From assembly GCA_902795065.1 (NCBI GenBank), contig CADBJR010000006.1, positions 18,753 to 82,752 of the forward strand: a DNA stretch of 64,000 bases, in the 5' to 3' direction. Each line of letters starts with the position of its first letter. Within the stretch, counting starts at the first letter, position 1. A program made the translations under genes and the position numbers. This DNA is from an uncultured Coriobacteriaceae bacterium (GTDB lineage: Bacteria > Actinomycetota > Coriobacteriia > Coriobacteriales > Atopobiaceae). Shown here in pieces: positions 13,015 through 29,622 of the stretch. Under the pieces are notes generated by a model. That model did not search any database and had not been told where the DNA came from. It saw only the letters and a list, made by a program, of their open reading frames with translations.

Positions 13015-14349
13015 TTATCCGACGGCGATGTCCTCGTGTGGGAGCCTGCCCACATTCCTGTGGAGGTCCTTGGTGGCGGCGTAGACGATCGTGAGTCCGC
13101 CCACGCGGCCGAGGAACATGAAGGACATCAAGATGATCCGCGAGAATGCGCCGAGGCCTGGCGTGATTCCGCAGGTGAGGCCCACGGTTCCGATGGCGGA
13201 TGCGCATTCGAACAGGCATGAGAGGTAGGGGAGACCCTCGAAGAAGGAGATGGCAGCACCTCCGAGGAGCGTGAACCCCACATACATCATGAAGACGGCA
13301 GACGCCTGCTTGATGGTGTCGTCGACGATCCTTCGCCCGAAGAGGTTGGATTCCTCCCTGCGGAAGCAGACCGAGACGAAGTTGGCGAGCAGGACCGCAA
13401 GCGTGGTGGTCTTGATACCGCCTGCCGTCGAGCCAGGAGAGCCGCCGATGAGCATGAGGACGATGGTGAACGCCTTGCTCGGCTCGCTCATCGTCGCGAC
13501 ATCCTCGACATTGAAGCCTGCCGTCCTCGTCGTGACGGAGTGGAACAGCGATGCGAGGGCTCGCTCGGTTCCAGGCAGGTTCCCATACTCGAACACGAAG
13601 AACGACAGGGCGGGGACGGCGATCAGGATCGCGGTCGTGGTGAGGATGACCTTGCTCTGCATGGTGTAGCGCTTGACCTTGCCCCTGTTCGCGATGATGT
13701 CGTTCCACGTGATGAAACCGATGCCTCCGAGCACGATGAGGAGCGAGATGGTGATGCAGACGATGGGGTTGTCGGCATATGCGGTGAGGGAGGCGTAGGG
13801 GGTCTCCGCGGTCCCCAGGATGTCGAACCCTGCGTTGCAGAATGCGGAGATGGACAGGAACACAGCCATCCAGATGCCCCGCAACCCGTACTCGTTGCAC
13901 ATCACGGGCATCAGGGTGAATGCGCCCAAGAGCTCCGTGAAGAAGGTGACCTCGAGAATGAATATCGCCATCCGGGCCATCCCCTCCACGCGCGGCGCGG
14001 CGAAGGTCTCCTGCAGCATGCTCCGCTCCCTGAGGGAGATCCTCCTGCCCGAGAGGAGGGAGAACGAGGCGGAGGCGAGGACGACGCCGAGGCCGCCCAT
14101 CTGGATCATGGCGATGATCACGATCTGGCCGAACATCGTCCATCCGGTGGCGGTGTCCTTGACGACGAGCCCTGTCACACAGGTCGCCGAGGTTGCGGTG
14201 AAGATGGCGTCGGAGAACGATGCGGGCGAGGCGGAGCGCGAGGAGATGGGGAGCATGAGCAGCGCCGTGCCGATCAGGATGATGGCGGCGAAGCCCAGGA
14301 CGACGATCCTGAATGAAGAGAGCTTCTTGCGCGTGATGATCGACGCCAC
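13015..14349 (-). CDS. trkH: TrkH/KtrB-family potassium channel subunit
   Basis: A 444-residue integral membrane protein with the four pseudo-repeated M1-P-M2 units of the Trk/Ktr family. Selectivity-filter segments are recognisable as TATSATCVTGL, AFCNAGF, TRTAGFN and SAIGTVGLT, each with the key glycine. The C terminus (HEDIAVG) matches the Ktr type. It uses a GTG start at 14349 after AAGGAG. With the downstream RCK subunit it forms a Na+- or H+-coupled K+ uptake system for osmotic adaptation. Confidence 0.91.
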   Translation of the reverse strand: MASIITRKKLSSFRIVVLGFAAIILIGTALLMLPISSRSASPASFSDAIFTATSATCVTGLVVKDTATGWTMFGQIVIIAMIQMGGLGVVLASASFSLLSGRRISLRERSMLQETFAAPRVEGMARMAIFILEVTFFTELLGAFTLMPVMCNEYGLRGIWMAVFLSISAFCNAGFDILGTAETPYASLTAYADNPIVCITISLLIVLGGIGFITWNDIIANRGKVKRYTMQSKVILTTTAILIAVPALSFFVFEYGNLPGTERALASLFHSVTTRTAGFNVEDVATMSEPSKAFTIVLMLIGGSPGSTAGGIKTTTLAVLLANFVSVCFRREESNLFGRRIVDDTIKQASAVFMMYVGFTLLGGAAISFFEGLPYLSCLFECASAIGTVGLTCGITPGLGAFSRIILMSFMFLGRVGGLTIVYAATKDLHRNVGRLPHEDIAVG

Positions 14350-14656
14350 CGCACGCTCCTTCTCGAAACCATCCGAATTGACGGGGAGCCATATCGAACC
14401 AACATACGATACACCATTATCCCGAAGATGTTGTGGAGGAAAAACAGACCGCGATTAAAATCCGATAGGGCTATTTAGAAAGAGGTCGACTCGCTTCTTG
14501 CGGGTTTTATATGCGACGGATTTGCTCGCTATCGCTATATGCACGGCTGATGCCGAAATGCGGGAAGCGGTGCTTGCACGCTAGGCAAATGGAAGGCAGG
14601 CGCACCGCCTCCGATGCGCCTGCCGCCTGCACCATCAAAACAGAAATGGGGGAACC
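14350..14656. other. Intergenic region without a gene
   Basis: This 307-base stretch lies upstream of trkH and downstream of the Nif11-like gene, both on the minus strand. GGCAGGCGCA/TGCGCCTGCC (14595-14624) is a perfect 10-bp hairpin 32 bases past the Nif11-like stop and may end that transcript, although no T-run follows. An A/T-rich section near 14420-14510 may hold the trkH promoter (GATAAT-like box on the minus strand). I looked for a c-di-AMP (ydaO) riboswitch and could not convince myself of one. Confidence 0.45.
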
Positions 14657-14839
14657 CTATGCGCGTGCTGCGCGCACGTCCTTGGCATCGACCTTGAAGC
14701 CGTGGGAACGCGCGAACTCGACGGTCGTATCGACGGCCTCGAGCTCGCCGGCCTCCGCCACGCGGGTGCGCAGCTTCTCTGCGAGCTGCGAATCCTCGGC
14801 GAGCGCCCTCATGAACTTATCGTAATCCCGCTTCGACAC
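14657..14839 (-). CDS. Nif11-like leader peptide
   Basis: A 60-residue peptide with the Nif11 pattern: FMRALAEDSQLAEKLRTRV (helix 1) followed by FARSHGFKVDAKDVRAA (the Gly-Phe/Tyr turn and final helix). Nif11-type sequences serve as leaders of ribosomally made modified peptides or of exported peptides. Here the chain ends right after the leader-like part, at AARA, with no cysteine-rich core and no terminal GG. It uses a GTG start at 14839 with AGAAAGG upstream. No modification enzyme is adjacent. The exporter at 46-51 kb belongs to a type often linked to such leaders; that link is inference. Confidence 0.6.
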   Translation of the reverse strand: MSKRDYDKFMRALAEDSQLAEKLRTRVAEAGELEAVDTTVEFARSHGFKVDAKDVRAARA

Positions 14840-14993
14840 GATGGTACCTTTCTCTCGGGTGCACCCTCAGCTGGCATCTCAGACGGCCGGATGCATTGAA
14901 CGTCTCTAACAATATTACCGTACGCAGGTCGGTCCGCTCGTGCGAGAATAGCGGGGAACGGCTGATGCGTCCTTCACGGAAAGGTGTCCCGAG

Positions 14994-15209
14994 ATGTTCC
15001 TGAAGAAGTCGCCCAAGATATCGGTTTCTTTCGACCCCGAGACGCAGTACCCCGTCATCCGCGCCTCGATCTGCACGGGGGAGCGCGTCGCCGGCTTCAA
15101 GAACAAGTCGGATGGGCACTTCACCGAGGTGATGCTCCTCCGCTCCATGGAGGACGAGCAGGCATTCAAGGATGCCTGCGGGGTCGATGAGCTGAGGACG
15201 GTGTACTGA
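14994..15209 (+). CDS. Small conserved-looking protein of unknown function
   Basis: A 71-residue protein starting FLKKSPKISVSFDPETQYPV. It is predicted to be beta-rich, with one central cysteine (ICTGERVAGF) and one near the end (DACGVDEL). ATG 14994 follows a purine-rich GGAAAGG element. It stands alone between two minus-strand small peptide genes, with 17 bases to the stop of the downstream convergent gene. Codon use matches the neighbours. I do not recognise a family and assign no role. Confidence 0.6.
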   Translation: MFLKKSPKISVSFDPETQYPVIRASICTGERVAGFKNKSDGHFTEVMLLRSMEDEQAFKDACGVDELRTVY

Positions 15210-15225
15210 GCGGGGCAGTCCAACG

Positions 15226-15456
15226 TTACAGGGTGCCCCAAATCTCCTTGATATATGCCAGCGTGTCCTCGCGCAGCTGCGGATCCTCCGTCTGCGAGAA
15301 GATCTCGAGCGCCCGCTCCAAAGTCGTGCCCTTCAGCTTCAGCAGCGGAATCGCCTGATCCAGCACGTTCCGAACCTCGTCGGTCAACACGCCGCCGGTG
15401 ATGCCCTCGAGCAGTTCATCGGGAAGCTCGATGCCCTCGAACAGGTTGTCTGCCAT
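15226..15456 (-). CDS. Small peptide with GG-type leader motif (candidate exported peptide)
   Basis: A 76-residue protein that starts with a short acidic leader, then LPDELLEGITGG at residues 11-22. This resembles the L-x-x-x-E-L-x-x-I-x-G-G motif recognised by C39 peptidase-exporters. Cleavage after Gly22 would release a 54-residue, cysteine-free, mostly helical peptide ending EIWGTL. The start codon has a strong AAAGGAG site 5 bases upstream. A candidate processing transporter with an intact C39 triad is at 47036 in this window. An ordinary cytosolic small protein with a chance ITGG is the alternative. Confidence 0.55.
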   Translation of the reverse strand: MADNLFEGIELPDELLEGITGGVLTDEVRNVLDQAIPLLKLKGTTLERALEIFSQTEDPQLREDTLAYIKEIWGTL

Positions 15457-15741
15457 GATCGCTCCTTTCCCGGGAGAACGCTTTGAAATAGTTAAGCGCC
15501 TTCACTTGATGATACGCGATGCACTGAGCCGTCGTCTCACGACGGAGGCGTCTGCGCGCGGGCTACCCTTCCTTTTTGCCGCGAACGGAATCCAACTATG
15601 CGCACATAATTTTTCGACGGGGTCATGCCCAGCTCATGCGGGCATCCCGTTGTCCTGCTAGGAGGTGGAACGGTCGCGGCCCCATGACGCGATGCCATGG
15701 GGCCGCTTGTCGCCTGTCTGGGGCGGGGGATGCCGATCGTG
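15457..15741. other. Intergenic region with a strong hairpin
   Basis: A 285-base stretch without a convincing gene. GCGGCCCCATG and CATGGGGCCGC (15677-15707) pair perfectly over 11 bp around a 9-base loop, just past the stop of the minus-strand lipoprotein gene. It probably ends that transcript, though a T-tract is lacking. The rest includes an A/T-rich patch near 15570-15620 of no clear meaning. Confidence 0.4.
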
Positions 15742-16215
15742 CTAGTCGTCGATCTCGGCGCTGCGCTCGAGGATGGCGCCGGTCACCGGGTCGATGTCGT
15801 ACTCGTACTCCATCTGGCTCACGTGGAAGTCAACCTCGTACTTGGTCACGCCGTCGTCGGTGTCAAGCTCGACCCTGAGGCGCGAGGTGTCCTGCTCGGC
15901 GACCCCGGCGTCATCGAAGGCGATGCGCTTGGCCGCGTCCTCGCCGATGAAGGGGGACTGCTGCTGGGTGGCCGCGGGGGCGCTGGCGGTAGCCTGCGTC
16001 TCGGTGGCGGTGGGCGCGCTGGTGGCAGCTGGCGCCTCGGTCGCGGCCGCCTCCTCCTGTGCCGTGGCCTCGGGGGCCTGCGTCTGAACGGTCTGCTCCT
16101 GGGCGGTGGGCTCGGCGGGAGCCGGTGCCGCCTGCTGAGCGCCACCGCAGCCACCCAAGACGACCATCATTGCCACTGCGCCTGCTGCGAAGATCCCTGC
16201 GATTGCCTTATTTAT
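15742..16215 (-). CDS. PepSY-domain lipoprotein
   Basis: About 157 residues. A signal peptide (NKAIAGIFAAGAVAMMVV) ends in the lipobox LGGC. A low-complexity Ala/Thr/Glu/Gln linker of about 70 residues tethers a C-terminal PepSY domain (IGEDAAKRIAFDDAGV, then YEVDFHVSQMEYEYDIDPVTGAIL). PepSY proteins are extracytoplasmic and often inhibit peptidases or sense the wall. The start is odd: AAAGGAG lies 6 bases before ATA 16213-16215, which gives a normal-sized signal peptide. In-frame ATGs at 16275-16287 add a charged extension, and one overlaps a probable -10 box (see 16277-16307). An ATA start is my reading, not proven. Confidence 0.75.
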   Translation of the reverse strand: MNKAIAGIFAAGAVAMMVVLGGCGGAQQAAPAPAEPTAQEQTVQTQAPEATAQEEAAATEAPAATSAPTATETQATASAPAATQQQSPFIGEDAAKRIAFDDAGVAEQDTSRLRVELDTDDGVTKYEVDFHVSQMEYEYDIDPVTGAILERSAEIDD

Positions 16216-16276
16216 GAGGTGCTCCTTTCGTCTGGTGCGCCGCCCCGATGCCGTGGGCGCTTCCGATAACCACTTA

Positions 16277-16307
16277 TTCATACGCACCAGATGACGAGCC
16301 GTCTCAA
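16277..16307 (-). promoter_or_regulatory. Candidate promoter of the PepSY lipoprotein gene
   Basis: On the minus strand, TTGAGA (16302-16307) and TATGAA (16277-16282) are separated by 19 bases. The -35 is embedded in CCGTCTCAAAAAAG (plus strand 16299-16312), a 14-mer that recurs exactly at 52371-52384 upstream of the small peptide gene at 52305. If real, transcription begins near 16270 and excludes the upstream ATG codons. Confidence 0.4.
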
Positions 16308-16371
16308 AAAAGAGAGATGCGGCGAAAGGTTATTCAGCGTGCTGTCTTGCGACGTCGTGTCGCGGCAACCT

Positions 16372-18852
16372 CTACTCCTGTCGGAGCCACCGTTCCGGAT
16401 AGCACGTCTCGACGGCATCGCAGACCGAGCTGGCAAGATCGTCGTCCGCGCCGAACAGGGAGACGTATCCCTCGAGGTTCCTCGCCTTCTCCCGCAGCAT
16501 GCCCCTCTTGTCGAGAACGAAGATGTGGCATTTGCGCTTCCCGTTCTTGGCATCCTGGATCATGTTCGCGCCGGAGGAGTTCCCATCGAGGGCGATGAGG
16601 ACCGAGGGTCTGCGCTTGAAGACCTCGTAGGCAACGCTCTTGTAGATGCCCATGGGGCTGGGCTCGATGGAAACGCGAATGCGGACGCCGGCATGCTTCA
16701 GGCTCCTCGCCTCCTCCGGTCCGATCCGGGCCGGAACGAAGGCATAGATGTCGAACTTCCCCTGGTTCCGCTCGGCAAGGTACTGCTCGTAGCCCGAAAG
16801 GCTGTGGCCGATGACCAGGAACATCTTGCCAGGATCCCCCTTGGCGAGGACGTCGTCCAACAGGGCGCAGATGTCGCGGCGGCGCCTGGTCGCATGGCGA
16901 TCGTTATTGAAGGATCCTCCTACGAGGATCACCGGCACCCGGTCGCTCGGCAGCTCCTCGATCCTGTCGGAGAAGACCGCGGCGCTGTCCGTGGTATCCG
17001 AGAGGTCCAGCAGGGCCTCCTCCGTCGGCTGCTGAGCCTGCACCCGCGAGGCGTAGAAGGCCTCGACATCTCCCGCACCAACCTCGTCGACAAAGACGCG
17101 CATCTTCTCCTCGAGGGCGGCAAGGCCGCGGCTTCGGACCGCGTCCTCCGCACGATGCATGGCGATAAGCTCCTCCTTCGAGAGGTTGAGCGTCTTCTCG
17201 AGCGCGAGCTGCTCGTCGATCGAATCCGTCCCATACACGGCACCGCCGTCGGTTCCCTGCACGCAGGGCACGCCAGCCGCCAGGTACTGGCGCAGGGGGT
17301 GGTGCTCCAGCTGGCTCAGGTTGTTCAGCCGGACGTTCGAGGTGATCTGGAACTCCAGGACGGCACCGCTGTCCTTGAGGTCCTCCAGCAGCTGCCGTCC
17401 CTTGGCCGAGGTGAGGTTCCTGGTGTAGAGTCCGTGGCCGATCCGGATGAGGGGCATGGGCTGCCCGGGCGCAAGCCCCTCGCGGATGCATCTGATCGCG
17501 TTGGCCACGTTGTCGCGCAGGCCGTCGTTCTCCCCGGCATGGACGCGGATCGTGAAGGAGGGGTGGTCTGCGGCGATCCGGTCGAGCTCCGCCAGCAGCG
17601 GGGCAAGGTCGCGGATGTCGTTGATCTCCTCGCCGACGATGTCGCTGCCCGCCACATAGGGATCTCCCGCTATCGCACGTATCGTCTGGAGGCTCCTGCG
17701 CATCGAATCGTCATACGCGATCCTGTCGCGCACGATCGTGAGCGGAGTCCGCCGGATCGCCGCCAGGAACCGCAGCGTGACCCTGGTTTCCCGCCTGATC
17801 GCCGGCATCACCGCATGGACTTCGGCAAGCATGCGCGGTGCATCCTCGGGCTTCGCCAGGGTCGTGTCGGAGATCTCCGCGTAGTCGATGCCGCATGCGG
17901 CGTAGCTCCGCGCGATCCACAGCAGCTTGTCCTGGAAGACGCTGTTGGCGGAGAACGCAGGGTTGCTGCGATCCATTTCCATCGCGGCAAGGGCTTGGAC
18001 GATCTCGTGGTCGGGGATGCGCTCGATGCCGTCGATCCGGATCGGGTCGTCGGCGGGCACGCCCTTGCAGAAGACGTAGCGGTACAGATAGACCTTCTCG
18101 AGGTTGGTGAAGACGGCCTGCCCGTCTTTCATGATGGCCAGCGACGCCCTGATCCTGGGGATGTTCCACGCCGCGTTCTCCAGGTTCTCGAGAATGAGGG
18201 AGGCGAAGTTCAAAAACGTCCCGTCATCTATCCTGCGGTTCAGGTACTTGCCCTTGAGGGGTGAGCCGCGAAGCTGCGTCGCCGTCTGGGCACGCCGCGT
18301 CGCAAGGACCCGCTCCTGCGCGGGTGACAGCCGCAGCCCCAGCTTGCGGATGTAGTAGAGCGGGTAGCGGATCTGATGGTGGATACCGAGGGCGATGAGG
18401 ATGTCGGGATCGAGGTTGGCGTTCATGTGGGTGTGCAGGTCGGTGCGGAACTTGCACTCGCGCAGGATGTAGGTCTTCACGACGGTCTTGCGGAAATCCT
18501 GCCGGTAGTCCTTGGTCTGGCTCATCAGGGTCTTCGCGATGGCGGGTATGGATGCCTTCCGCTCGATCCTGCCGTCCGGATAGATGTTGGCGACCTTCGT
18601 ATCGAGCAGGCGGAACACGTAGACCATGCGGTTGCTGCCGTCGATGTAGCAGGGCAGCGTGCCCCGGATCACCTTGAGGCCGTCCTCATCCGTCTGAAGC
18701 TCCAGGTTGCACAGAGCGGCGAGGTTGGTGATGAGGTTGCCCGTTCCGTGGTTCGGCGTTCTGAGCACGTAGTGCAGCTCGTCCCGATCGCGGAAGAGGT
18801 CGACGACGAGGTCCTTCTCCTTGTCGAGGTAGAACTGTCCGAATGCCTCCAT
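16372..18852 (-). CDS. Adenosine deaminase-fold enzyme fused to a C-terminal SLOG/Rossmann-like domain
   Basis: An 826-residue protein. The ADA-family metal site looks complete: DLHTHMN with H140/H142, RVHAGEND with H438 and catalytic E441, RIGHG with H473, TSN at 504-506 and GTDGG with D535. An unrecognised N-terminal part of about 130 residues precedes it, and residues about 180-430 carry a large helical insertion. From about 638 a separate domain starts VPVILVGGSFNN, with FLVIGHSLSGYEQ and LDGNSSGANMIQDA, resembling nucleotide-binding SLOG/LOG or TIR-like Rossmann folds. Housekeeping adenosine deaminases are about 340 residues. Large divergent ones occur in antiphage systems (RdrB of RADAR), but no RdrA-type ATPase is adjacent. 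It borders a probable accessory block. ATG 18852 was chosen where the protein fold appears to start. Confidence 0.72.
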   Translation of the reverse strand: MEAFGQFYLDKEKDLVVDLFRDRDELHYVLRTPNHGTGNLITNLAALCNLELQTDEDGLKVIRGTLPCYIDGSNRMVYVFRLLDTKVANIYPDGRIERKASIPAIAKTLMSQTKDYRQDFRKTVVKTYILRECKFRTDLHTHMNANLDPDILIALGIHHQIRYPLYYIRKLGLRLSPAQERVLATRRAQTATQLRGSPLKGKYLNRRIDDGTFLNFASLILENLENAAWNIPRIRASLAIMKDGQAVFTNLEKVYLYRYVFCKGVPADDPIRIDGIERIPDHEIVQALAAMEMDRSNPAFSANSVFQDKLLWIARSYAACGIDYAEISDTTLAKPEDAPRMLAEVHAVMPAIRRETRVTLRFLAAIRRTPLTIVRDRIAYDDSMRRSLQTIRAIAGDPYVAGSDIVGEEINDIRDLAPLLAELDRIAADHPSFTIRVHAGENDGLRDNVANAIRCIREGLAPGQPMPLIRIGHGLYTRNLTSAKGRQLLEDLKDSGAVLEFQITSNVRLNNLSQLEHHPLRQYLAAGVPCVQGTDGGAVYGTDSIDEQLALEKTLNLSKEELIAMHRAEDAVRSRGLAALEEKMRVFVDEVGAGDVEAFYASRVQAQQPTEEALLDLSDTTDSAAVFSDRIEELPSDRVPVILVGGSFNNDRHATRRRRDICALLDDVLAKGDPGKMFLVIGHSLSGYEQYLAERNQGKFDIYAFVPARIGPEEARSLKHAGVRIRVSIEPSPMGIYKSVAYEVFKRRPSVLIALDGNSSGANMIQDAKNGKRKCHIFVLDKRGMLREKARNLEGYVSLFGADDDLASSVCDAVETCYPERWLRQE

Positions 18853-19060
18853 GCGCCTGCCCTTCAAGCTGACAGGGGTGACGGCTTTGCGCCCCCTCCT
18901 TTGCGTAACGATAGCACCAGTTACGGGGAGCTGGCACGTGGCTGACGAGAAGAGAGGCGGTGAGACGGCCATCCCTTTTCCCAGAGTCCCTTGCGCTTCC
19001 GCAGCAGCTCGGGACGAGCTGGCTGTCGGTCGGGGAGAAGTGCTACTATTACTGCCGAAT

Positions 19061-19145
19061 AGGGGAGCTGGCGCACGCCGGCTGAGATTGGGCCCACCGC
19101 GGCCCTGACCCTCGAACCTGATCTGGGTAATGCGCATTACCCGAC
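19061..19145 (+). ncRNA. TPP riboswitch (THI element), 3'-truncated copy
   Basis: Positions 19062-19132 match the intact riboswitch at 21648-21718 in 68 of 71 bases, including GGCTGAGATTGGG and CCTGATCTGGGTAATG. The conserved 3' end (CCAGCGTAGGGA) is missing. Instead GGGTAATG-CG-CATTACCC makes a perfect 8-bp hairpin, and a terminator follows at 19155. No thiamine gene lies downstream. The aptamer core needed for thiamine pyrophosphate binding is probably broken. Confidence 0.85.
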
Positions 19146-19154
19146 AATGTATTT

Positions 19155-19181
19155 CAGCCGCAGGTAGAGCGGCTGTTTTTG
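19155..19181 (+). terminator. Terminator directly after the truncated riboswitch
   Basis: CAGCCGC and GCGGCTG form a stem around AGGTAGA, followed by TTTTT. It would stop any transcript that enters through the truncated THI element. Confidence 0.85.
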
Positions 19182-19367
19182 TGCGAAATCCAAGGCAGTC
19201 CCGAAAGGATGTCCCAGACGGTCACACGGGCGTCTCTCGTGTTGCTCCTGCCCACATGCCGAATCGGCGAGCGGTCAGTCGGGCATGAAGGCAGCCCTCG
19301 TTACGCATCGAGGTTTCCCTTGTCTAGGGCTAGAATTGGGCCAGCCTAGTGAGGAAAGGTGCGCAAC

Positions 19368-19849
19368 ATGCTGGTTGTGGTGAGGACGGTCGATGACGGC
19401 GTGGTCGAGAGGCTCTTCGGCGTGTACGCGGAGTCGATGGGCGATCTCTCGGTCAACTTCTCAAATGAGAGGGAGATGCGCTCGTTGTATCGCGAGTTTC
19501 TCGAGGGCTTCGTCTCCGATTCGGGGCACCTCGTGCTCGTCGAGGAGGACGACGGCGTTTGGAAGAGCGCCTTGCGTGCGGTCTCGTGCGGCGGAGGTTG
19601 CTGGTTCATCGAGGCGGCTGAGACCGACCCCGGCGCCAGGCGCCGGGCAACGGTCGGCTCCTGCTGTCGCACGCCACGGAGTACCTACGCTCGCTCGGCG
19701 CGCGCGAGGTGACCTGCGTCATCTACAGGGGCAACGAGGCATCCAGAAGGCTCCACGAGTCATGCGGATTCAAGGCGACGGACGAGGACCCGGTCGACCC
19801 CTGGGGAGATCGCGACGAGTGCGGCGTTCTCTATAGGTCTCGGTTGTGA
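19368..19849 (+). pseudogene. GNAT-family N-acetyltransferase broken by a frameshift
   Basis: The first reading frame from ATG 19368 encodes an acetyltransferase N-terminal half (YAESMGDLSVNFSNEREM, then GGGCWFIEAAETDPGARR). Near 19640-19648 the frame must shift by one base, and the continuation reads GNGRLLLSHATEYLRSLGA and then GNEASRRLHESCGF, the acetyl-CoA loop and C-terminal part, ending at TGA 19847-19849. Without the shift the protein stops at a TGA about 60 codons too early. A single inserted G in CGCCGGGCAACGG would explain it. A sequencing error is possible. Confidence 0.72.
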
Positions 19850-19899
19850 CGCGGACCCACTTGGTCGCAAAGCTATTTCGTAGTGAATTCATGCCGTAC

Positions 19900-19921
19900 T
19901 TATAACAATATACTGTTACAA
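19900..19921 (+). promoter_or_regulatory. Promoter and operator-like inverted repeat of the abiE-type operon
   Basis: TTATAACA-ATATAC-TGTTACAA is an imperfect palindrome overlapping TATACT (19909-19914), a good -10 box. Transcription would start about 8 bases before the ATG at 19929. AbiEi antitoxins of characterised systems bind inverted repeats in their own promoter, so autoregulation is plausible here. Confidence 0.6.
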
Positions 19922-19928
19922 TTGCAGC

Positions 19929-20555
19929 ATGAAAGCATTAGATGCCTTGAACATAACGGATGGAATAGCTGCTTCGCAGCGGGGGCTCGTCACATCCGCG
20001 CAGGCGCTGGCCGCGGGGGTGGGGAGGATGGAGCTCTCGCGTCTTGCCGCGAACGGGCACCTCGAGCGCGTGGGCCGCGGCGTGTACCGGGCATCCGGCG
20101 CCCCGTCCATACGCGAGGAGGCGGTATGGGCTGCATGGCTCTCGCTCGAACCTGCGGTGCTTGCGCATTCGCGGGACCCGCTCGCATGCGCCGTCTCCCA
20201 CAACACGGCTGCATGGCTCATGGGCTTGGGCGAGCTTGGCCCGGAGCCCCTGACCTTCACCTCGGCGGTGCGCAGGCAAGTGCAAAGGGGCGGCCTGCGC
20301 GTCGTGCGCGGAAGGCTCTCGACGGACGAAGTGCGCACTGTCGCTGGGCTTCCCTGCACAACCGCCACGCGGACCGTGTGCGATCTCGTCGCCGACGGCG
20401 AGGACCTGAGCCTGGTCTCGGCGGTGCTGCAAGACGCGCTCTCCGCCGGCATGATTGTCGACGAGGCGGCGCTGCGTCGAGATGTCGACGGGCTGGGGAA
20501 GAGGCGCGGGCTTGCCAGGGGGACCTCGCTCTACGAGATGCTGAGGAGGGGGTAG
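19929..20555 (+). CDS. AbiEi-family antitoxin
   Basis: A 208-residue protein with the AbiEi layout: an N-terminal winged-helix domain (GLVTSAQALAAGVGRMELSR, then GHLERVGRGVYRASGAP) and a C-terminal domain typical of type IV antitoxin proteins (AVSHNTAAWLMGL, LPCTTATRTVCDLVADG). It is the transcriptional repressor and antitoxin of an AbiE pair. Its stop at 20553-20555 is one base before the GTG start of the toxin gene. The very short 5' leader agrees with the promoter placed at 19909. Confidence 0.85.
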   Translation: MKALDALNITDGIAASQRGLVTSAQALAAGVGRMELSRLAANGHLERVGRGVYRASGAPSIREEAVWAAWLSLEPAVLAHSRDPLACAVSHNTAAWLMGLGELGPEPLTFTSAVRRQVQRGGLRVVRGRLSTDEVRTVAGLPCTTATRTVCDLVADGEDLSLVSAVLQDALSAGMIVDEAALRRDVDGLGKRRGLARGTSLYEMLRRG

Positions 20556-20556
20556 C

Positions 20557-21432
20557 GTGGCATACCAGAGTCCGACAGAGTTCGACCTCGCGCTCAAGAG
20601 GGCGGTGCGCGAGGCCGGCGGCGACCCGGGTGCGGGATACCGCCAGGCGCTGCGTGACCGGTTCCTCTGCCGCGTGTTCAGGGGAGGGCGCTCCGATCTC
20701 GTTCTCAAGGGTGGCAGCGGGATTCTCGCAAGGATCCCCGACGCGCGCGCGACGCGCGATGTCGACTTCGGGCTCGTCGTGCCCTTGGATGCCGACTCGG
20801 CCGTGGCCGACCTGGTCGAGCGGGCCTCGGTTGACCTCGGCGACTTCTGCCGCTTCGAGCTGACGAGGCGCGAGGAGCGCATGGACGAGAACGGCTATTC
20901 GAGGCTGCTCAAGCTGCGCTTCTCGACGTTCGTCGGCGCAGAGGAGAAGGACCCCGTGCTCATAGACCTGTCGCTCGACTGTGCTCCCACGGGCGTGCCC
21001 GTAGTCGCAGACCCAGTGAGGCGCATCCAGCTCGAGGGCGTCGAGTCCTCGCCCTACGTGCTCTACCCCGTTTGCGACCAGCTCGCGGACAAGCTCTGCG
21101 CGGCCATGGAGGTCCAGCCCGGCGGGTACCCCTCGTCCAGGATGAAGGACCTCGTGGACATCGTGCTCGTCGCGCGCACTCAGGAGCTGGATTGGGGGGA
21201 CCTGAGGCTGGCCGTCGTCGCGGAGTGCGCAAGGAGGGGGATGGCTGTGCCCGGGTGCTTCGAGGCCCCGGCATTCTGGCGTGCCGGGTTCGAAAGGTTC
21301 GCGCGCAGGCAGGGGGTAGACGTCACGTTCGACGGGGCCTGCGAGGTCGCGGGAGCCCTCTTCGACCCCGTCCTCGGCGACGTCGCCTGTGGCACATGGC
21401 ACCCGGAAGGCCTGCGGTGGGACCGTTGCTGA
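20557..21432 (+). CDS. AbiEii-family nucleotidyltransferase toxin
   Basis: A 291-residue nucleotidyltransferase-fold toxin. Residues 50-71 contain LKGGSGILAR and TRDVDFG, the GS plus D-x-D metal motif; VLIDLSLD supplies the third acidic position, and VCDQLADKLCAAME a conserved lysine region. AbiEii-type toxins transfer nucleotides, in characterised cases to tRNA ends, and cause abortive infection or growth arrest unless balanced by AbiEi. It starts at GTG 20557, coupled to the antitoxin stop. The pair sits between two TPP-riboswitch copies, suggesting acquisition as a unit. Confidence 0.86.
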   Translation: MAYQSPTEFDLALKRAVREAGGDPGAGYRQALRDRFLCRVFRGGRSDLVLKGGSGILARIPDARATRDVDFGLVVPLDADSAVADLVERASVDLGDFCRFELTRREERMDENGYSRLLKLRFSTFVGAEEKDPVLIDLSLDCAPTGVPVVADPVRRIQLEGVESSPYVLYPVCDQLADKLCAAMEVQPGGYPSSRMKDLVDIVLVARTQELDWGDLRLAVVAECARRGMAVPGCFEAPAFWRAGFERFARRQGVDVTFDGACEVAGALFDPVLGDVACGTWHPEGLRWDRC

Positions 21433-21639
21433 CGAAAAGTCTCGGGATCCTCTTGGCCGATTGCGGTCACGAAGGGGTGCGCTCGCCCCTCAAGTGTGTG
21501 TTTCGTATGACTCGGCCCCTTAGGGCCGCTTAGGGCCACTTGGCGTGACGTGCCGAGGACGCTTGCCGTTCGTTTGCGGCAATATCGTTTCCGTCACGCA
21601 AGCGCGGTCGCGGCAGAGGGGATGAGTGCTACCATTACA
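21433..21639. other. Spacer between the AbiE pair and the TPP riboswitch
   Basis: No gene is seen. It holds a weak AGGGG/CCCCT hairpin near 21473-21490, two tandem TTAGGGCC units near 21518-21538, and a promoter-like element before the riboswitch (GTGCTACCATTAC, 21626-21638). That element resembles GTGCTACTATTAC ahead of the truncated copy (19040-19052), so the duplication includes promoter sequence. Confidence 0.4.
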
Positions 21640-21735
21640 ACTCGATAGGGGAGCTGGCGCACGCCGGCTGAGATTGGGTCCATCGCGGCCCTGACCCTCC
21701 AACCTGATCTGGGTAATGCCAGCGTAGGGAGACTG
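21640..21735 (+). ncRNA. TPP riboswitch (THI element) controlling the thiXYZ-like operon
   Basis: All conserved parts are present: GGGGAGC, GGCTGAGATTGGG, GACCCTCCAACCTGATCTGGG and TAATGCCAGCGTAGGGA. The terminal AGGGAG (21726-21731) is also the ribosome binding site of the first gene, 5 bases before its ATG. Thiamine pyrophosphate binding should therefore hide the translation start. No separate terminator hairpin is visible, which fits translational control. Confidence 0.94.
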
Positions 21736-21736
21736 A

Positions 21737-22522
21737 ATGCGCCTGCCCTCCAAACAGAAGACCGTGCCCGCCATCGCGGTTGCCGCCGTGCTCGCCGTAT
21801 GGCAGGCTGCCTGCTCGCTCGGTCTCATCCCGGCGTTCATGCTGCCGAGCCCCATCGCCGTGGTCTCCGCGCTGGTGAGCGACTTCCCGCTCATCTGGTC
21901 GCATACGGTGACGACGCTTCTCGAGGCGGGGCTCGGACTCGCCATCGGCGTGGTGCTCGGCTTCATCCTCGCCGTCCTCATGGACCGTTATCAGACGTTC
22001 CGTCTCGCCATCCAGCCCCTCATCACGCTCTCGCAGACCGTGCCCACCATCGCCATCGCCCCGCTCCTGGTGCTGTGGCTCGGCTATGGCATCCTCCCCA
22101 AGGTCGTCCTCATCGTGCTCACGACGTTCTTCCCCGTGGCCGTGTCGCTCGCCGACGGCTTCGCCTCGGTTGACCGCGACATCATCGACCTCATGCGCAC
22201 GATGAACGCCTCCAACCTGCAGATCTTCGTCTACGCGAAGCTCCCCGCAGCCGCCGAGCAGTTCTTCAGCGGCCTCAAGATCAGCGCCACCTACGCCATC
22301 GTCTCCGCAGTCATCGCCGAGTGGCTCGGCGGCATGAGCGGCCTGGGCGTGTATATGACGCGCGTCCGCAAGTCGTTCTCCTACGACAAGATGTTCGCGT
22401 CGATCCTGGTCATCTCCGCGCTTTCGCTGGGCCTGATGCGCCTCATCGGCCTGCTCGAGCGCGTATGCCTGCCTTGGAAACAGATCGAAAGGAAAGAACA
22501 TGGAAAGATTATCGCGTCGTAG
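21737..22522 (+). CDS. thiX: ABC transporter permease, thiamine-precursor type (ThiX)
   Basis: A 261-residue permease of the SsuC/TauC/ThiX class with about six transmembrane helices and the coupling (EAA) loop around EWLGGMSGLGVYMTR. The TPP riboswitch directly upstream indicates uptake of a thiamine precursor, most likely a pyrimidine (HMP or formylaminopyrimidine). The coding region overlaps the next gene by 23 bases. It acts in the membrane with the ATPase at 23517 and the binding protein at 22500. Confidence 0.88.
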   Translation: MRLPSKQKTVPAIAVAAVLAVWQAACSLGLIPAFMLPSPIAVVSALVSDFPLIWSHTVTTLLEAGLGLAIGVVLGFILAVLMDRYQTFRLAIQPLITLSQTVPTIAIAPLLVLWLGYGILPKVVLIVLTTFFPVAVSLADGFASVDRDIIDLMRTMNASNLQIFVYAKLPAAAEQFFSGLKISATYAIVSAVIAEWLGGMSGLGVYMTRVRKSFSYDKMFASILVISALSLGLMRLIGLLERVCLPWKQIERKEHGKIIAS

Positions 22523-23510
22523 CTTCCTCGCTGCCTGCGCAGCACTCGGCACCGCCGCATTTGCCGGCTGCAAGCAGGAGCAGCCCCAGGACGAGGGCGT
22601 TCTCACCAACAAGGTCTCCTTCGTGCTGGACTACTCGCCCAACGTCAACCACACGGGCATCTACGTCGCCATGGAGAAGGGCTTCTTCGCCGACGAGGCG
22701 ATCGAGGTGGAGATCGTTCCCGTGCCCGCCGACGGATCCGATGCGCTCATCGGCACGGGCGGCGCCCATATGGGCATGACCTATCAGGACTACATCGCCA
22801 ACAGCCTTGCGTCCGCGAACCCCATGCCCTATACCGCCGTTGCAGCGGTGGTGCAGCACAACACGAGCGGCATCATGAGCCGCGCCGAGGATGGCATCAC
22901 GACGGCTAAGAACATGGAAGGCCACACCTATGCCACGTGGGGACTGCCCGTCGAGCAGGCCACCATCAAGCAGATCGTCGAGGCCGACGGGGGTGACTAC
23001 GACAAGGTTGAGCTCGTGCCCTACGAGGTGGATGACGAGGTCATGGGCCTGCAGGCGGGCCTCTTCGACACGGTGTGGGTCTACGAGTGGTGGGCGGTCC
23101 AGAACGCCAACCTGCAGAATTATGCCGTGAACTACTTCTCGTTCGCCGACATGGACCCGGTCTTCGACTACTACACGCCCGTCATCGCCGCGAACGACTT
23201 CTTCATGCAGGAGCACCCCGAGCTCGTGAAGGGCTTTCTGCGCGCGGCCAAGAAGGGCTACGAGTTCGCGGCGGCCAACCCTGCGGAGGCCGCAGAGATC
23301 CTCTGCAAGGCCGTTCCCGAGCTCGACCCGGCGCTCATCTCCGCAGCGCAGGAGTCCATCTCTCCGGAGTACATCGCCGACGCTGCAAGCTGGGGCGTCA
23401 TCGATCCCGAGCGTTGGAAGCGCTTCTACCAGTGGCTCAACGACAAGGGCCTCGTCGAGAACGCCTTCGCTCCCGAGGCCGGCTTCACGAACGACTTCCT
23501 GGAGGGGTAG
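22500..23510 (+). CDS. thiY: NMT1/THI5-like substrate-binding lipoprotein (ThiY)
   Basis: A 336-residue binding protein. The N terminus SRRSFLAACAALGTAAFAGC has a twin-arginine-like start and a lipobox ending at Cys20, so it is a membrane-anchored lipoprotein. The mature part is an NMT1/THI5-like fold (FVLDYSPNVNHTGIYVAMEK, then DYIANSL and ATWGLPVEQ) used to bind thiamine pyrimidine precursors. The order permease, binding protein, ATPase under a TPP riboswitch supports the assignment. A general aliphatic-compound binding protein is the less likely alternative. Confidence 0.88.
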   Translation: MERLSRRSFLAACAALGTAAFAGCKQEQPQDEGVLTNKVSFVLDYSPNVNHTGIYVAMEKGFFADEAIEVEIVPVPADGSDALIGTGGAHMGMTYQDYIANSLASANPMPYTAVAAVVQHNTSGIMSRAEDGITTAKNMEGHTYATWGLPVEQATIKQIVEADGGDYDKVELVPYEVDDEVMGLQAGLFDTVWVYEWWAVQNANLQNYAVNYFSFADMDPVFDYYTPVIAANDFFMQEHPELVKGFLRAAKKGYEFAAANPAEAAEILCKAVPELDPALISAAQESISPEYIADAASWGVIDPERWKRFYQWLNDKGLVENAFAPEAGFTNDFLEG

Positions 23511-23516
23511 GGCATC

Positions 23517-24248
23517 ATGGCGGCACCCGCGCTCGAGGCGCAGAGCCTGACGCTCTCGTGGGGCGACTTCGCCGTCGCCGAGGGGGTCTCGGTCCATGTG
23601 GACGAGGGCGAGCTCGCCTGCATCGTCGGGCGCAGCGGCTGCGGAAAGACCACGCTCTTCCACGCGCTCGCCGGCCTCGAGAAGCCCGCGGGAGGCAGGG
23701 TGCTGCTCCGCGGCGAGGACATCACGGGCGTTCCCGGGCGTGTGAGCTACATGCTACAGAAGGACCTGCTCCTGCCGAGCAGGTCCATCCTCGACAACGC
23801 CGCGCTGCCGCTCATCGTGCGCGGGGTGGACCGCGACGCGGCGCGTGCGAAAGCGGGTGCGCTGTTCGCCACGTTCGGGCTCGAGGGCACCGAGGGACTC
23901 TGGCCATCGCAGCTCTCGGGCGGCATGCGCCAGCGCGCGGCGCTGCTGCGCACCTATCTCATGGATAACGACGTGGTGCTCCTCGATGAGCCCTTCTCGG
24001 CGCTCGATGCCATCACGCGCGTGGAGCTCAGGCGCTGGTTCGCCGGCATGGTGCGCGAGCTGGGCCTCTCGGCGCTCGTCATCACGCACGACGTCGACGA
24101 GGCAATCGACCTCGGCAGCCGCATCTACGTGTTCGACGGCATGCCGCGGAAGGGGATCGTCTCGCGCATCGTCGGCGAGGTCGACGTGCGCTCAGCCGGA
24201 GCTGATGCGGCGCGGACCACGCTCATGGGTTTGCTCGGCATCGCCTAG
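23517..24248 (+). CDS. thiZ: ABC transporter ATPase, thiamine-precursor type (ThiZ)
   Basis: A 243-residue ATP-binding subunit with Walker A GRSGCGKTT (about residues 41-49), signature LSGGMRQRAALLR, Walker B VVLLDEPFSALD and the H-loop VITHDVDEA. It starts 6 bases after the binding-protein stop and completes the riboswitch-controlled transporter. It is convergent with the GH3 gene, with only 12 bases between the stops and no clear terminator. Confidence 0.9.
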   Translation: MAAPALEAQSLTLSWGDFAVAEGVSVHVDEGELACIVGRSGCGKTTLFHALAGLEKPAGGRVLLRGEDITGVPGRVSYMLQKDLLLPSRSILDNAALPLIVRGVDRDAARAKAGALFATFGLEGTEGLWPSQLSGGMRQRAALLRTYLMDNDVVLLDEPFSALDAITRVELRRWFAGMVRELGLSALVITHDVDEAIDLGSRIYVFDGMPRKGIVSRIVGEVDVRSAGADAARTTLMGLLGIA

Positions 24249-27158: not shown

Positions 27159-27270
27159 GCCTACCTCCTTGCACAGGGCATGTTTTCATTAGCCACCCAT
27201 CCTGACACAACGGGCGGGAAAGGGAAGGTTTTCACAGCAACGCCATCTATTATTGACGCCGCATCCACAA

Positions 27271-27299
27271 TGACGATTCTCCTCGTAGGACTTTTGTCA
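27271..27299 (+). repeat. REP unit L1
   Basis: Begins TGACGATTCTCCTCGTAGGA and ends CTTTTGTCA. TCCT-CGT-AGGA is the palindromic core, and TGAC/GTCA are the inverted ends. It differs from the other three at one base (G for A at position 5). Confidence 0.85.
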
Positions 27300-27308
27300 G
27301 CTTTTTGG

Positions 27309-27337
27309 TGACAATTCTCCTCGTAGGACTTTTGTCA
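27309..27337 (+). repeat. REP unit L2
   Basis: Begins TGACAATTCTCCTCGTAGGA. Its last three bases TCA are, on the minus strand, the TGA stop codon of the RAYT gene. Confidence 0.88.
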
Positions 27338-28093
27338 ACCGTTCAGGTTCTTCGAGATCCTCGCGATGATTCCCCTGCTTATGCTGGTCAGCCGCTCGAT
27401 CTGCCTGATTGACAGCCCTCGACGAAGCAGCCTCTCGATACCTGCATCGCGCTCGTTCCGAGGAAGGGATTTGAGGTTCTCGATGTCCGCGCCCAGCTCT
27501 TCGTGTGCTATGAAGAGCGCCCTGGCCATGGAATCACCGATCCGCCCAGAATCGAAGGAGGGGAGGACGTCATCTCCGAGGTACTGGTTGAACCTGTCGA
27601 ATTCTTCAAGTGACCCGTACATCTCCAGCACCATCCCAGTCTCGGCAAGCCCTTGAGCTCCGAGATACTCTCGGTAACTGCTCCACGGGTACATCTGATA
27701 GTCGATCTTTCCCAGCTCGACTGGATTCTGATGGATGTATCGGACGACGGCGAGAAGTTGGGAGTCCGATTCGATGGGGACGCTCTTGAAACGATCTTGG
27801 AATAGATGCCCCACCCGATTGTGCCGCTCGTTGAAATGCTTCGCATATGCCGAGAGAACCTTCTGCATGAACGACGATAGATCGTCCTTCGCAGCGCGGG
27901 CAAGCAGGTGGAAATGGTTGTCCATGAGGCACCATGCGAGGATCTCAACCTTGGCGGGGCCCTTTGCCTCGGCAATCCGCTCGATCAGATACGAGCGGTC
28001 GTCATCGTCCTCGAAGATGATCTGCCGCCCAACGCCTCGGCACATGACATGGTAGATTTCCGAGCTGCTTTCGATTCTCGCGTTGTACGACAT
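27335..28093 (-). CDS. REP-associated tyrosine transposase (RAYT, Y1 family)
   Basis: A 252-residue HUH single-strand transposase. The HUH motif is DNHFHLL with H60 and H62, and Y83 in KVLSAYAKHFNERH is the likely catalytic tyrosine. YIHQNPVELG is a conserved Y1_Tnp/RAYT block. The C-terminal about 60 residues include a helix-turn-helix-like segment (RRGLSIRQIERLTSISRG), often seen in RAYTs. Start is ATG 28093. A 12-bp inverted repeat lies just upstream. It is intact, so it may still act on the flanking REP units. Confidence 0.9.
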   Translation of the reverse strand: MSYNARIESSSEIYHVMCRGVGRQIIFEDDDDRSYLIERIAEAKGPAKVEILAWCLMDNHFHLLARAAKDDLSSFMQKVLSAYAKHFNERHNRVGHLFQDRFKSVPIESDSQLLAVVRYIHQNPVELGKIDYQMYPWSSYREYLGAQGLAETGMVLEMYGSLEEFDRFNQYLGDDVLPSFDSGRIGDSMARALFIAHEELGADIENLKSLPRNERDAGIERLLRRGLSIRQIERLTSISRGIIARISKNLNG

Positions 28094-28119
28094 AGGGGCT
28101 CCAAAACGCGGATGATGAA

Positions 28120-28157
28120 GACGCCCATCGTATCAGTTATTTGAAACGATGGGCGTC
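28120..28157. repeat. 12-bp inverted repeat upstream of the RAYT gene
   Basis: GACGCCCATCGT and ACGATGGGCGTC pair perfectly across a 14-base A/T-rich loop. It lies between the RAYT start and REP unit R1. It may be a regulatory site for the transposase or a structured element it recognises. Confidence 0.7.
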
Positions 28158-28166
28158 AAAGAAAGC

Positions 28167-28195
28167 TGACAAAAGTCCTACGAGGAGAATTGTCA
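28167..28195 (-). repeat. REP unit R1
   Basis: Inverted copy of L2: begins TGACAAAAGTCCTACGAGGA on the plus strand and ends GAATTGTCA. Confidence 0.88.
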
Positions 28196-28204
28196 TCAAA
28201 AAGC

Positions 28205-28233
28205 TGACAAAAGTCCTACGAGGAGAATTGTCA
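28205..28233 (-). repeat. REP unit R2
   Basis: Same sequence and orientation as R1. Its last three bases TCA (28231-28233) are the TGA stop codon of the M18 aminopeptidase gene on the minus strand. Confidence 0.88.
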
Positions 28234-29622
28234 CCTCTGGTTGAGGAAGGCCTTGTAGGCCCGGTAGGCTTCGAAGACATCCGCCTTGCTCGTGACCTCC
28301 CACGGCGCATGCATCGAGAGCACGGGGATGCCGCAGTCGATGACGCTCATGCCGTAGTTTGCGAGCATGTAGGCGATGGTCCCGCCGCCGCCCGCATCGA
28401 CCTTTCCCAGCTCGGAGGTCTGCCAGTGCACGCCCGCCTCGTCCATCACGCGGCGCAGCGCAGCCACATACTCGGCGTCTGCATCGTTGGAGCCGCCCTT
28501 GCCGCGCGCACCGGTGAACTTGATGAACGACACGCCATGGCCGAGATATGCCGCGTTCTTGGGGTCGTACACCGAGGGGAATGCCGGGTCGTAGCCCACG
28601 GAGACATCGTTTGACAGCACGCAGGAGCGCTCGAGGCAGCGGCGCAGCGGAAGCGAACCGCCCTCTCCCGCGAGCTCGAGGATCTCGGCCATGGCATCCT
28701 CGAACCAGCGGCTGTGCATGCCGGTGGCACCCACTGAGCCGATCTCCTCCTTGTCGACGAGGAGGCACACGGCGGCGCGCTTAGGCATCTCGGTATCGAG
28801 CTGCGCGGTAAGGCTGGTGTAGGCGCAGGAACGGTCATCCTGCCCGTAGCCCAGGATCATCGAGCGGTCGAAGCCCACCTCGCGCGCCTTGCCGGCGGGA
28901 ACAACCTCGAGCTCTGCAGATAGCAGGTCTTCCTCCTCGATCCCAAGATCCTCCTTGAGGTGGCTGATGACGTTGGTCTTGACCGGGTCTTTGCACTCGT
29001 CACCATCCTTGATCGTGAGCGGGCGCGAGCCAACCAGGATATCGAGCATCTCGCCTTCGATGACCTCCGACGCCTTCTTGGCCATCTGCTCGCCTCCGAG
29101 ATGGGGGAGCAGATCGGTGATGTAGAAGACCGGATCGTCCTCCGCCTCACCCATCTTCACGGTGATGACGCTGCCGTCCTTCAGGGCGATGACTCCGTGG
29201 ATGGCGAGCGGCATCGTGACCCACTGGTACTTCTTGATGCCGCCGTAGTAGTGGGTATCCATGTAGGCGAGGCCGTTCTTCTCCTCGAGCGGATTCTGCT
29301 TGATGTCGAGGCGCGGGCAGTCGATATGGGCGCCCAAGATGTTGAGGCCCTTCTCGAGCGGCTCGGTGCCCAGCTGGATGAGCATGAGGGTCTTGCCCCT
29401 GTTGGACGCGTAGATCTTGTCACCGGGCTTGAGCGCGGCTCCAGACGCGATGGCGCTCTCAAGAGAGATATAGCCCTCCTTCTCGGCAAGCTCGATTGCT
29501 GCTGCTGCGCATTCGCGCTCGGTCTTATTCTCGGAGATGAAGGCGCGATACTTCGTGCAAAACGCCTCAAGCTCGGCTGTTTGCTCCTCGGTGTACTCGC
29601 TCCACGCGCAGGGGTGTTCCAT
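28231..29622 (-). CDS. M18-family aminopeptidase
   Basis: A 463-residue cytosolic metallo-aminopeptidase (aspartyl aminopeptidase/ApeA-like family). GAHIDCPRL supplies the first metal His and Asp, CLLVDKEEIGSVGATG the catalytic and metal glutamates, VLSNDVSVGYDP another Asp, and ISMHAPWEV-like VLSMHAPWEVT the final His. The length and C-terminal half match the family's two-metal (co-catalytic) layout. Start ATG 29622 follows GGAGC. The stop codon belongs to a REP unit, so the original C terminus may have been a few residues different. Confidence 0.91.
   Translation of the reverse strand: MEHPCAWSEYTEEQTAELEAFCTKYRAFISENKTERECAAAAIELAEKEGYISLESAIASGAALKPGDKIYASNRGKTLMLIQLGTEPLEKGLNILGAHIDCPRLDIKQNPLEEKNGLAYMDTHYYGGIKKYQWVTMPLAIHGVIALKDGSVITVKMGEAEDDPVFYITDLLPHLGGEQMAKKASEVIEGEMLDILVGSRPLTIKDGDECKDPVKTNVISHLKEDLGIEEEDLLSAELEVVPAGKAREVGFDRSMILGYGQDDRSCAYTSLTAQLDTEMPKRAAVCLLVDKEEIGSVGATGMHSRWFEDAMAEILELAGEGGSLPLRRCLERSCVLSNDVSVGYDPAFPSVYDPKNAAYLGHGVSFIKFTGARGKGGSNDADAEYVAALRRVMDEAGVHWQTSELGKVDAGGGGTIAYMLANYGMSVIDCGIPVLSMHAPWEVTSKADVFEAYRAYKAFLNQR

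Follow-up and report, generated by a model that had tools for sequence, protein, structure and literature searches.

The gene described here encodes an 826-residue protein in which a beta-rich N-terminal domain, an adenosine deaminase (ADA) barrel and a C-terminal SLOG-like domain are joined, and this is a new architecture inside a known enzyme superfamily. It lies in the window, that is, the whole stretch of 64,000 nucleotides that was analysed, and it belongs to an orphan family with sharp boundaries, present in many ruminant gut bacteria. The architecture, the orphan status of the family, its horizontal spread and its shifting location are secure. The protein is likely a nucleotide deaminase with a ligand-binding tail, and an immune or stress role for the family is plausible. 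Nucleotide-deaminating ADA-fold proteins have recently emerged in bacterial immunity, where RADAR depends on its partner RdrA and Cad1 on a CRISPR signal; in the present family the ADA fold is joined to a different ligand-binding domain, without a conserved gene partner. We know of no earlier example of a SLOG domain fused to an ADA. As a single gene it allows direct testing, and either outcome, phage defence or salvage, would give a function to a family that is unnamed in the curated libraries searched.

Regarding the gene itself, the first-pass annotation had given the interval correctly, and the strand is the minus one: from 18852 to 16372 there are 826 codons and a stop, in agreement with the 826 residues counted before, and the plus strand of 16372-18852 is interrupted by stops. 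The reading frame opens further upstream, at 19137; the homologs begin at the methionine of residue 1. AlphaFold2 modelled the full protein with a mean pLDDT of 85 and a pTM of 0.81; in this model the beta-rich N-terminal domain covers residues 1-100, the barrel residues 135-600 and a C-terminal Rossmann-type domain residues 637-800. The ADA fold, the extra N-terminal domain and the SLOG-like Rossmann domain, all of them proposed in the first-pass annotation, were recovered by the alignment, the structure prediction and the fold search. For the full model, Foldseek against the PDB placed ordinary ADAs on top (6n9m, E 2e-8), the ADGF-type enzymes and the ADA domain of Cad1 ranked below them, and the tail led to the LOG-like structure 1ydh. 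The only Pfam match on the full protein was A_deaminase (PF00962; residues 317-574, E=1e-14, 54.8 bits against a cut-off of 27), the NCBIfam adenosine deaminase models matched far under their cut-offs (45.8 bits against 216.55 for the TIGR01430 equivalog), and no model of the curated family libraries searched spans the whole 826-residue protein. The family is under purifying selection, with a dN/dS of 0.12-0.22 for the whole gene against five homologs and of 0.10-0.33 for its parts taken separately. As the values are low in the whole gene and also in the separate parts, the entire protein is under selection. The coordinates of the features are given in Table 1.

Table 1. Features of the deaminase gene and its surroundings (positions in the window).
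Feature	Coordinates	Strand	Evidence
Complete deaminase gene, 826 aa: beta domain, ADA barrel and SLOG-like domain	16372..18852	-	translation, Pfam, alignment, model
N-terminal beta-rich domain, residues 1-100, without family match; holds conserved TPNHGTGNLITNLA	18553..18852	-	model, conservation
Adenosine deaminase barrel with insertions, residues 135-600	17053..18450	-	Pfam, model, fold search
H140-T-H142 zinc ligands, then N144, aligned with mouse ADA D19	18427..18435	-	alignments
Residues 241-260, MKDGQAVFTNLEKVYLYRYV, candidate lid, partly low pLDDT	18073..18132	-	conservation, alignment, model
H438-A-G-E441, zinc ligand and catalytic glutamate	17530..17541	-	alignment
H473 (IGHG motif)	17434..17436	-	alignment
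D535-G536; family-invariant G536 aligns with mouse ADA D296	17245..17250	-	alignments
SLOG-like Rossmann domain, residues 637-800	16453..16944	-	models, fold searches
GGSFN loop, residues 645-649	16906..16920	-	alignment
GNSSGAN loop, residues 757-763	16564..16584	-	alignment
Probable extended -10, TGCTATCGT	18908..18916	-	comparison of upstream regions
AbiEi/AbiEii toxin-antitoxin pair, a neighbour outside the system	19929..21432	+	neighbour annotation
Stretch nearly absent in same-genus genomes, between trkH and TPP-ABC operon	14338..21703	.	comparison with G078, G079

The catalytic ADA motifs that the first reading of the sequence had picked out, H140, H142, H438, E441, H473 and D535, are all invariant in the alignment of 63 full-length homologs and the zinc site is intact. 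Ordinary bacterial adenosine deaminase (PF00962, TIGR01430) shares the barrel, the zinc site and the catalytic glutamate with the family, but it has around 340 residues instead of 826, and the family adds the insertions as well as an Asn and a Gly in the pocket. The Asn is N144 and it is present in at least 90% of the family members (locus L066 has Ser), whereas the eight ordinary ADAs aligned all have Asp or Glu at this position, a residue that in ordinary ADAs hydrogen-bonds the 5' and 3' hydroxyls (PMC12669630). Asn is also what the plant and human N6-methyl-AMP deaminases have there (HAHLNG in 6ijm, 6j23 and 8qch); thus, these MAPDA/ADAL enzymes and the family have both replaced the ribose-reading Asp of ADA in the same way, although the former are around 355 residues long and have no extra domains. 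Cad1 has Gly at this position and converts ATP to ITP, with little or no activity on adenosine (PMC12669630). Because the D19 carboxylate is replaced in the family, as it is by Asn in MAPDA/ADAL and by Gly in Cad1, a phosphorylated substrate is the better inference, and it is the loss of the ribose-reading residue that points to it. Nevertheless, adenosine deamination was not rescued when both canonical residues were restored in TaqCad1 (PMC12669630), so the substrate cannot be read from the pocket residues alone. G536, at the D296 position, was down-weighted as a marker of ATP deamination, since TDN, with Asn at this position, is common among the ordinary ADAs aligned. The most conserved 20-residue stretch of the family is that of residues 241-260 (mean majority 99%), which sits in an insertion that ordinary ADAs do not have.

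By its predicted fold alone, the C-terminal domain belongs with the SLOG superfamily, and its nucleotide binding is putative. The first-pass annotation had described a Rossmann-like domain with GGSFNN, GHSLSG and DGNSSGAN and had proposed structure prediction and comparison with SLOG domains; the motifs are present, the model does have a Rossmann domain at the C terminus and Foldseek matches it to SLOG. Modelled alone (pLDDT 88, pTM 0.87), the domain matched almost exclusively SLOG-superfamily structures, with E from 5e-5 and a TM by query length of around 0.5. These were LOG phosphoribohydrolases (one in complex with AMP), DprA, ShosA, TRPM channels and molybdenum-cofactor carriers, all of which belong to the SLOG superfamily, and the list includes relatives of the LOG-AMP and TRPM2-ADPR type; the SLOG domain of ThsA is not among the fold matches listed. 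The SLOG domains of LOG, DprA, TRPM and ThsA bind nucleotides or nucleic acid. LOG, DprA and the N-terminal domains of TRPM share the Rossmann-type fold with the tail of the family according to Foldseek, but no sequence similarity; in Pfam nothing passed the cut-off for this domain, so that no SLOG family was assigned by sequence, and the PDB gave no natural sequence relative. The catalytic motif of LOG, PGGxGTxxE, is absent, and GNSSGAN probably occupies its place. Toprim was discarded for this domain, as its matches were weak (best E 0.009) and the fold search gives it no support.

The species-level genome collection yielded 157 homologous loci, of which 80 were read. The hosts are rumen-associated Coriobacteria, Lachnospiraceae, Erysipelotrichales and some Clostridia, whose record titles mostly name RUG or RGIG, labels of ruminant or rumen MAG sets. 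A full-length or fragmentary member is present in around 29 of the 140 genomes of the window's own family, in 23 of 397 in the family of G140 (Oribacterium, Lachnospiraceae), in 73 of 295 in the order of G144 (Solobacterium, Erysipelotrichales) and in 2 of the 349 genomes of a phylum-wide spread sample (phylum of G140). Nearly all searched genomes of the genus g31 and most of those of the genus g35 carry the gene. Complete family genes score above around 1000 bits and ordinary ADAs below 42, with nothing intermediate. There is one copy per genome, genes split over contigs aside, and around nine family genes of the Erysipelotrichales have one internal stop. The phage records and IMG/VR had no full-length homolog and the plasmids searched had none either, only ordinary ADA; phage or plasmid carriage was therefore rejected. 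An ordinary ADA occurs alongside the family gene in 10 g35 genomes, it is absent from the g31 genomes and from G000, and many relatives carry neither of the two. Therefore, the family is not a plain replacement of ADA.

The deaminase gene is horizontally transferred, since its identities and those of rpoB disagree in both directions. Between G000 and G066 the identity is 73% for rpoB and 88% for the deaminase, and for G000 compared with the L023 MAG, which is from Clostridia, it is 59% and 71% respectively; this MAG carries both genes on a single contig (C19), which speaks against misbinning. The two Solobacterium genomes G144 and G142 show the opposite, with 79% for rpoB and 57% for the deaminase. 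In the tree, with midpoint rooting, the actinobacterial clade is placed beside three Clostridia MAGs, inside Bacillota. Furthermore, G078 and G079, which are of the window's genus and do not have the gene, show a nearly closed site: the gap from trkH to the TPP-ABC operon is 7.3 kb in the window versus 356 bp and 1.16 kb respectively. The transfer and this nearly closed site are consistent with a mobile accessory gene. Most genome pairs have unrelated flanks within 1.5 kb, even in genera where nearly all members carry the gene. In most Coriobacteria the similarity begins at a -10-like TGCTATCAT, the counterpart of the probable extended -10 of the window, which in most coriobacterial homologs sits around 30-40 nt upstream of the start codon. 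Both this limit and the other one, at the stop codon, are sharp. No integrase or terminal repeat was noticed with the gene.

A 102-nt repeat was considered as the end of a mobile element and rejected, because it is a second, partial copy of the TPP riboswitch region. This copy is at 19032-19133 (+), 2.6 kb from the TPP riboswitch at 21637-21748 (+), which precedes an ABC transporter at 21737-24248 (permease, binding protein and ATPase), and the AbiE pair sits between the two copies. The nearly closed site of G079 (L152, around 2166-2723) holds a seemingly decayed AbiEii fragment, and the trkH/TPP-ABC site may be a small hotspot.

As to the neighbouring genes, the AbiEi/AbiEii pair, around 1 kb from the deaminase gene, had been overlooked in the first-pass annotation. 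Its remark that the usual partner genes are not adjacent was right, and it extends to the family: no neighbour or operon partner recurs family-wide in the 80 loci, so an operon partner was discarded. A gene for a YfbR-like HD nucleotidase is directly upstream, at 38-141 nt, in four Oribacterium (L066, L072, L074, L075), HAD phosphatases are upstream in five other loci and trkA is upstream in five coriobacterial loci. PADLOC at 1e-8, run on the 117 neighbouring proteins alone, matched at most around 20 of them, probably near 10, mostly with generic models. With so few matches there is no defence-island signature among these neighbours. The neighbours are mostly metabolic, yet they form neither a purine operon nor another metabolic operon. 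A wide housekeeping distribution with a metabolic neighbourhood had been named in the first-pass annotation as refuting its reading of the protein; the spread is in part housekeeping-like, being near-universal in two genera, but the neighbourhood is not that of a metabolic operon.

The kinship to RADAR and Cad1 that had been suggested for the protein holds at the level of the ADA superfamily and not closer, since the RdrB models are unmatched and ordinary ADAs beat the family on the Cad1 model. The hallmarks of RdrB are a dodecameric shell and the conversion of ATP to ITP. Like the family, RdrB has an ADA fold and a similar length, it is extended at the N terminus by around 140 residues before HxH, and its chain is enlarged by an insertion from HxH to the third His; in E. 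coli RdrB these are H152/H154 with a gap of 344 from HxH to H, compared with H140/H142 and a gap of 296 here (PMC9994260). The similar size, the extension before HxH and the enlarged gap would suit a RADAR RdrB-type effector with its RdrA partner elsewhere in the genome, but we regard this as highly improbable. RdrB has an insertion 3 after its last His (PMC9994260) that is lacking in the family, where H473 and D535 are 62 residues apart; it has no SLOG tail, and it has RdrA as partner, whereas no RdrA adjoins the loci of the family. The NCBIfam RdrB model (NF041744) did not match P0001 at E<=1 or anything else in the genome, the PADLOC RdrB models did not match the family, and RdrB is not among the PDB fold matches listed for the full-length model. 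RdrB identity was rejected on the models, the absent insertion 3 and the absence of an adjacent RdrA. In a search of 399 Bacillota genomes for RdrB itself, none passed the cut-off.

Cad1 (CAAD, the CARF-fused ATP deaminase of type III CRISPR) resembles the family in joining a Rossmann domain of ligand-binding type to an ADA barrel and in the substitution of both the D19 and D296 positions (N144 and G536 in the family). However, D296 to N is also found in ordinary ADAs, so this double substitution is a weak criterion for Cad1. The ligand-binding domain of Cad1 is a CARF and N-terminal, whereas the putative one of the family is SLOG-like and C-terminal and is accompanied by the beta domain and the insertions; no CRISPR context was seen in the neighbourhood of the deaminase. 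The PADLOC model CARF_ADA was matched by its ADA half alone (around 328-590 of 605), with no CARF domain, and the ordinary ADAs used as control scored 129-212 bits on it versus 19-35 for the family, so this match was rejected as a sign of Cad1 kinship. The deaminase may work like Cad1, yet it is neither Cad1 nor RdrB.

The explanation that we tentatively put first, with a confidence somewhat below even, is a stand-alone ligand-gated nucleotide deaminase used as a conditional immune or stress effector, where the immune role is speculative. We infer deaminase activity, a phosphorylated substrate and ligand gating: the zinc ADA barrel would hydrolytically deaminate a 5'-phosphorylated adenine nucleotide (of the AMP, dAMP, ATP or dATP type) to its inosine form, and the SLOG domain would bind a nucleotide-type ligand and gate this activity. 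The gene would travel as a lone cassette with its own -10 element, and the effector would alter the pool of adenine nucleotides much as Cad1 and RADAR do, except that a single gene would encode both sensor and effector. We counted in favour the invariant catalytic residues, the ADA and SLOG folds, the replaced D19 carboxylate, the absence of a recurring partner, the sharp ends of the homology, the nearly closed site, the transfer and the dN/dS of 0.12-0.22; against it, the few PADLOC neighbours and the lack of full-length homologs in phage, plasmid and IMG/VR records. Moreover, presence in nearly all g31 and most g35 genomes is unusual for a defence gene. That the protein is a self-contained mobile immune protein without a partner, with a SLOG sensor and an ATP/dATP deaminase effector, which has spread through rumen Firmicutes and Coriobacteria and is a third, independently built class of nucleotide-deaminase immunity beside RADAR and Cad1, seems rather unlikely to us.

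Nucleotide salvage is a serious rival to the immune reading. The protein could serve the salvage or detoxification of purine nucleotides in the rumen niche, which we find possible if doubtful: its barrel would deaminate AMP or an N6-modified AMP derived from RNA, DNA or plant cytokinin nucleotides, its LOG-like domain would bind or process the same nucleotide, and a growth benefit would drive the spread. The Asn that the family shares with MAPDA/ADAL at the D19 position would also fit an ordinary salvage enzyme, and in the fold search of the C-terminal domain LOG phosphoribohydrolases rank near the top, but this domain does not have the LOG catalytic motif. Near-fixation in two genera and strong purifying selection agree with salvage, and so do the mostly metabolic neighbours, with the nucleotidase of the four Oribacterium and the HAD phosphatases of five loci; nevertheless, no purine operon and no recurring neighbour were found, and the coexistence with ordinary ADA in the 10 g35 genomes and the many relatives with neither gene also speak against it. 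The family could as well be a regulator of nucleotide homeostasis, whose SLOG domain would read an endogenous ADP-ribose- or alarmone-like nucleotide while the ADA trims the ATP/dATP pool in starvation, with no role against phages. The SLOG fold, the single copy with its own promoter-like element, the conserved N-terminal domain and the lid-like loop are consistent with it, but a patchy horizontal spread and a shifting location are less expected of a core regulator than of an accessory gene, and we hold this to be quite improbable.

Some other features of the window were observed. A PepSY lipoprotein gene (15742-16287, -) is directly downstream of the deaminase gene and is not conserved beside its homologs. 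A Nif11-domain peptide (PF07862, E 1e-6; 14657-14839, -) and another short peptide, whose sequence includes a leader-like GITGG stretch (15226-15456, -), are possible natural-product precursors, with no obvious modifying enzyme beside them. Finally, two inverted repeats of 67 nt, 97% complementary and around 830 nt apart (27270-28235), flank a short gene (27335-28093, -) that resembles a REP-associated Y1-type transposase, and the whole looks like a small palindrome-flanked mobile element.
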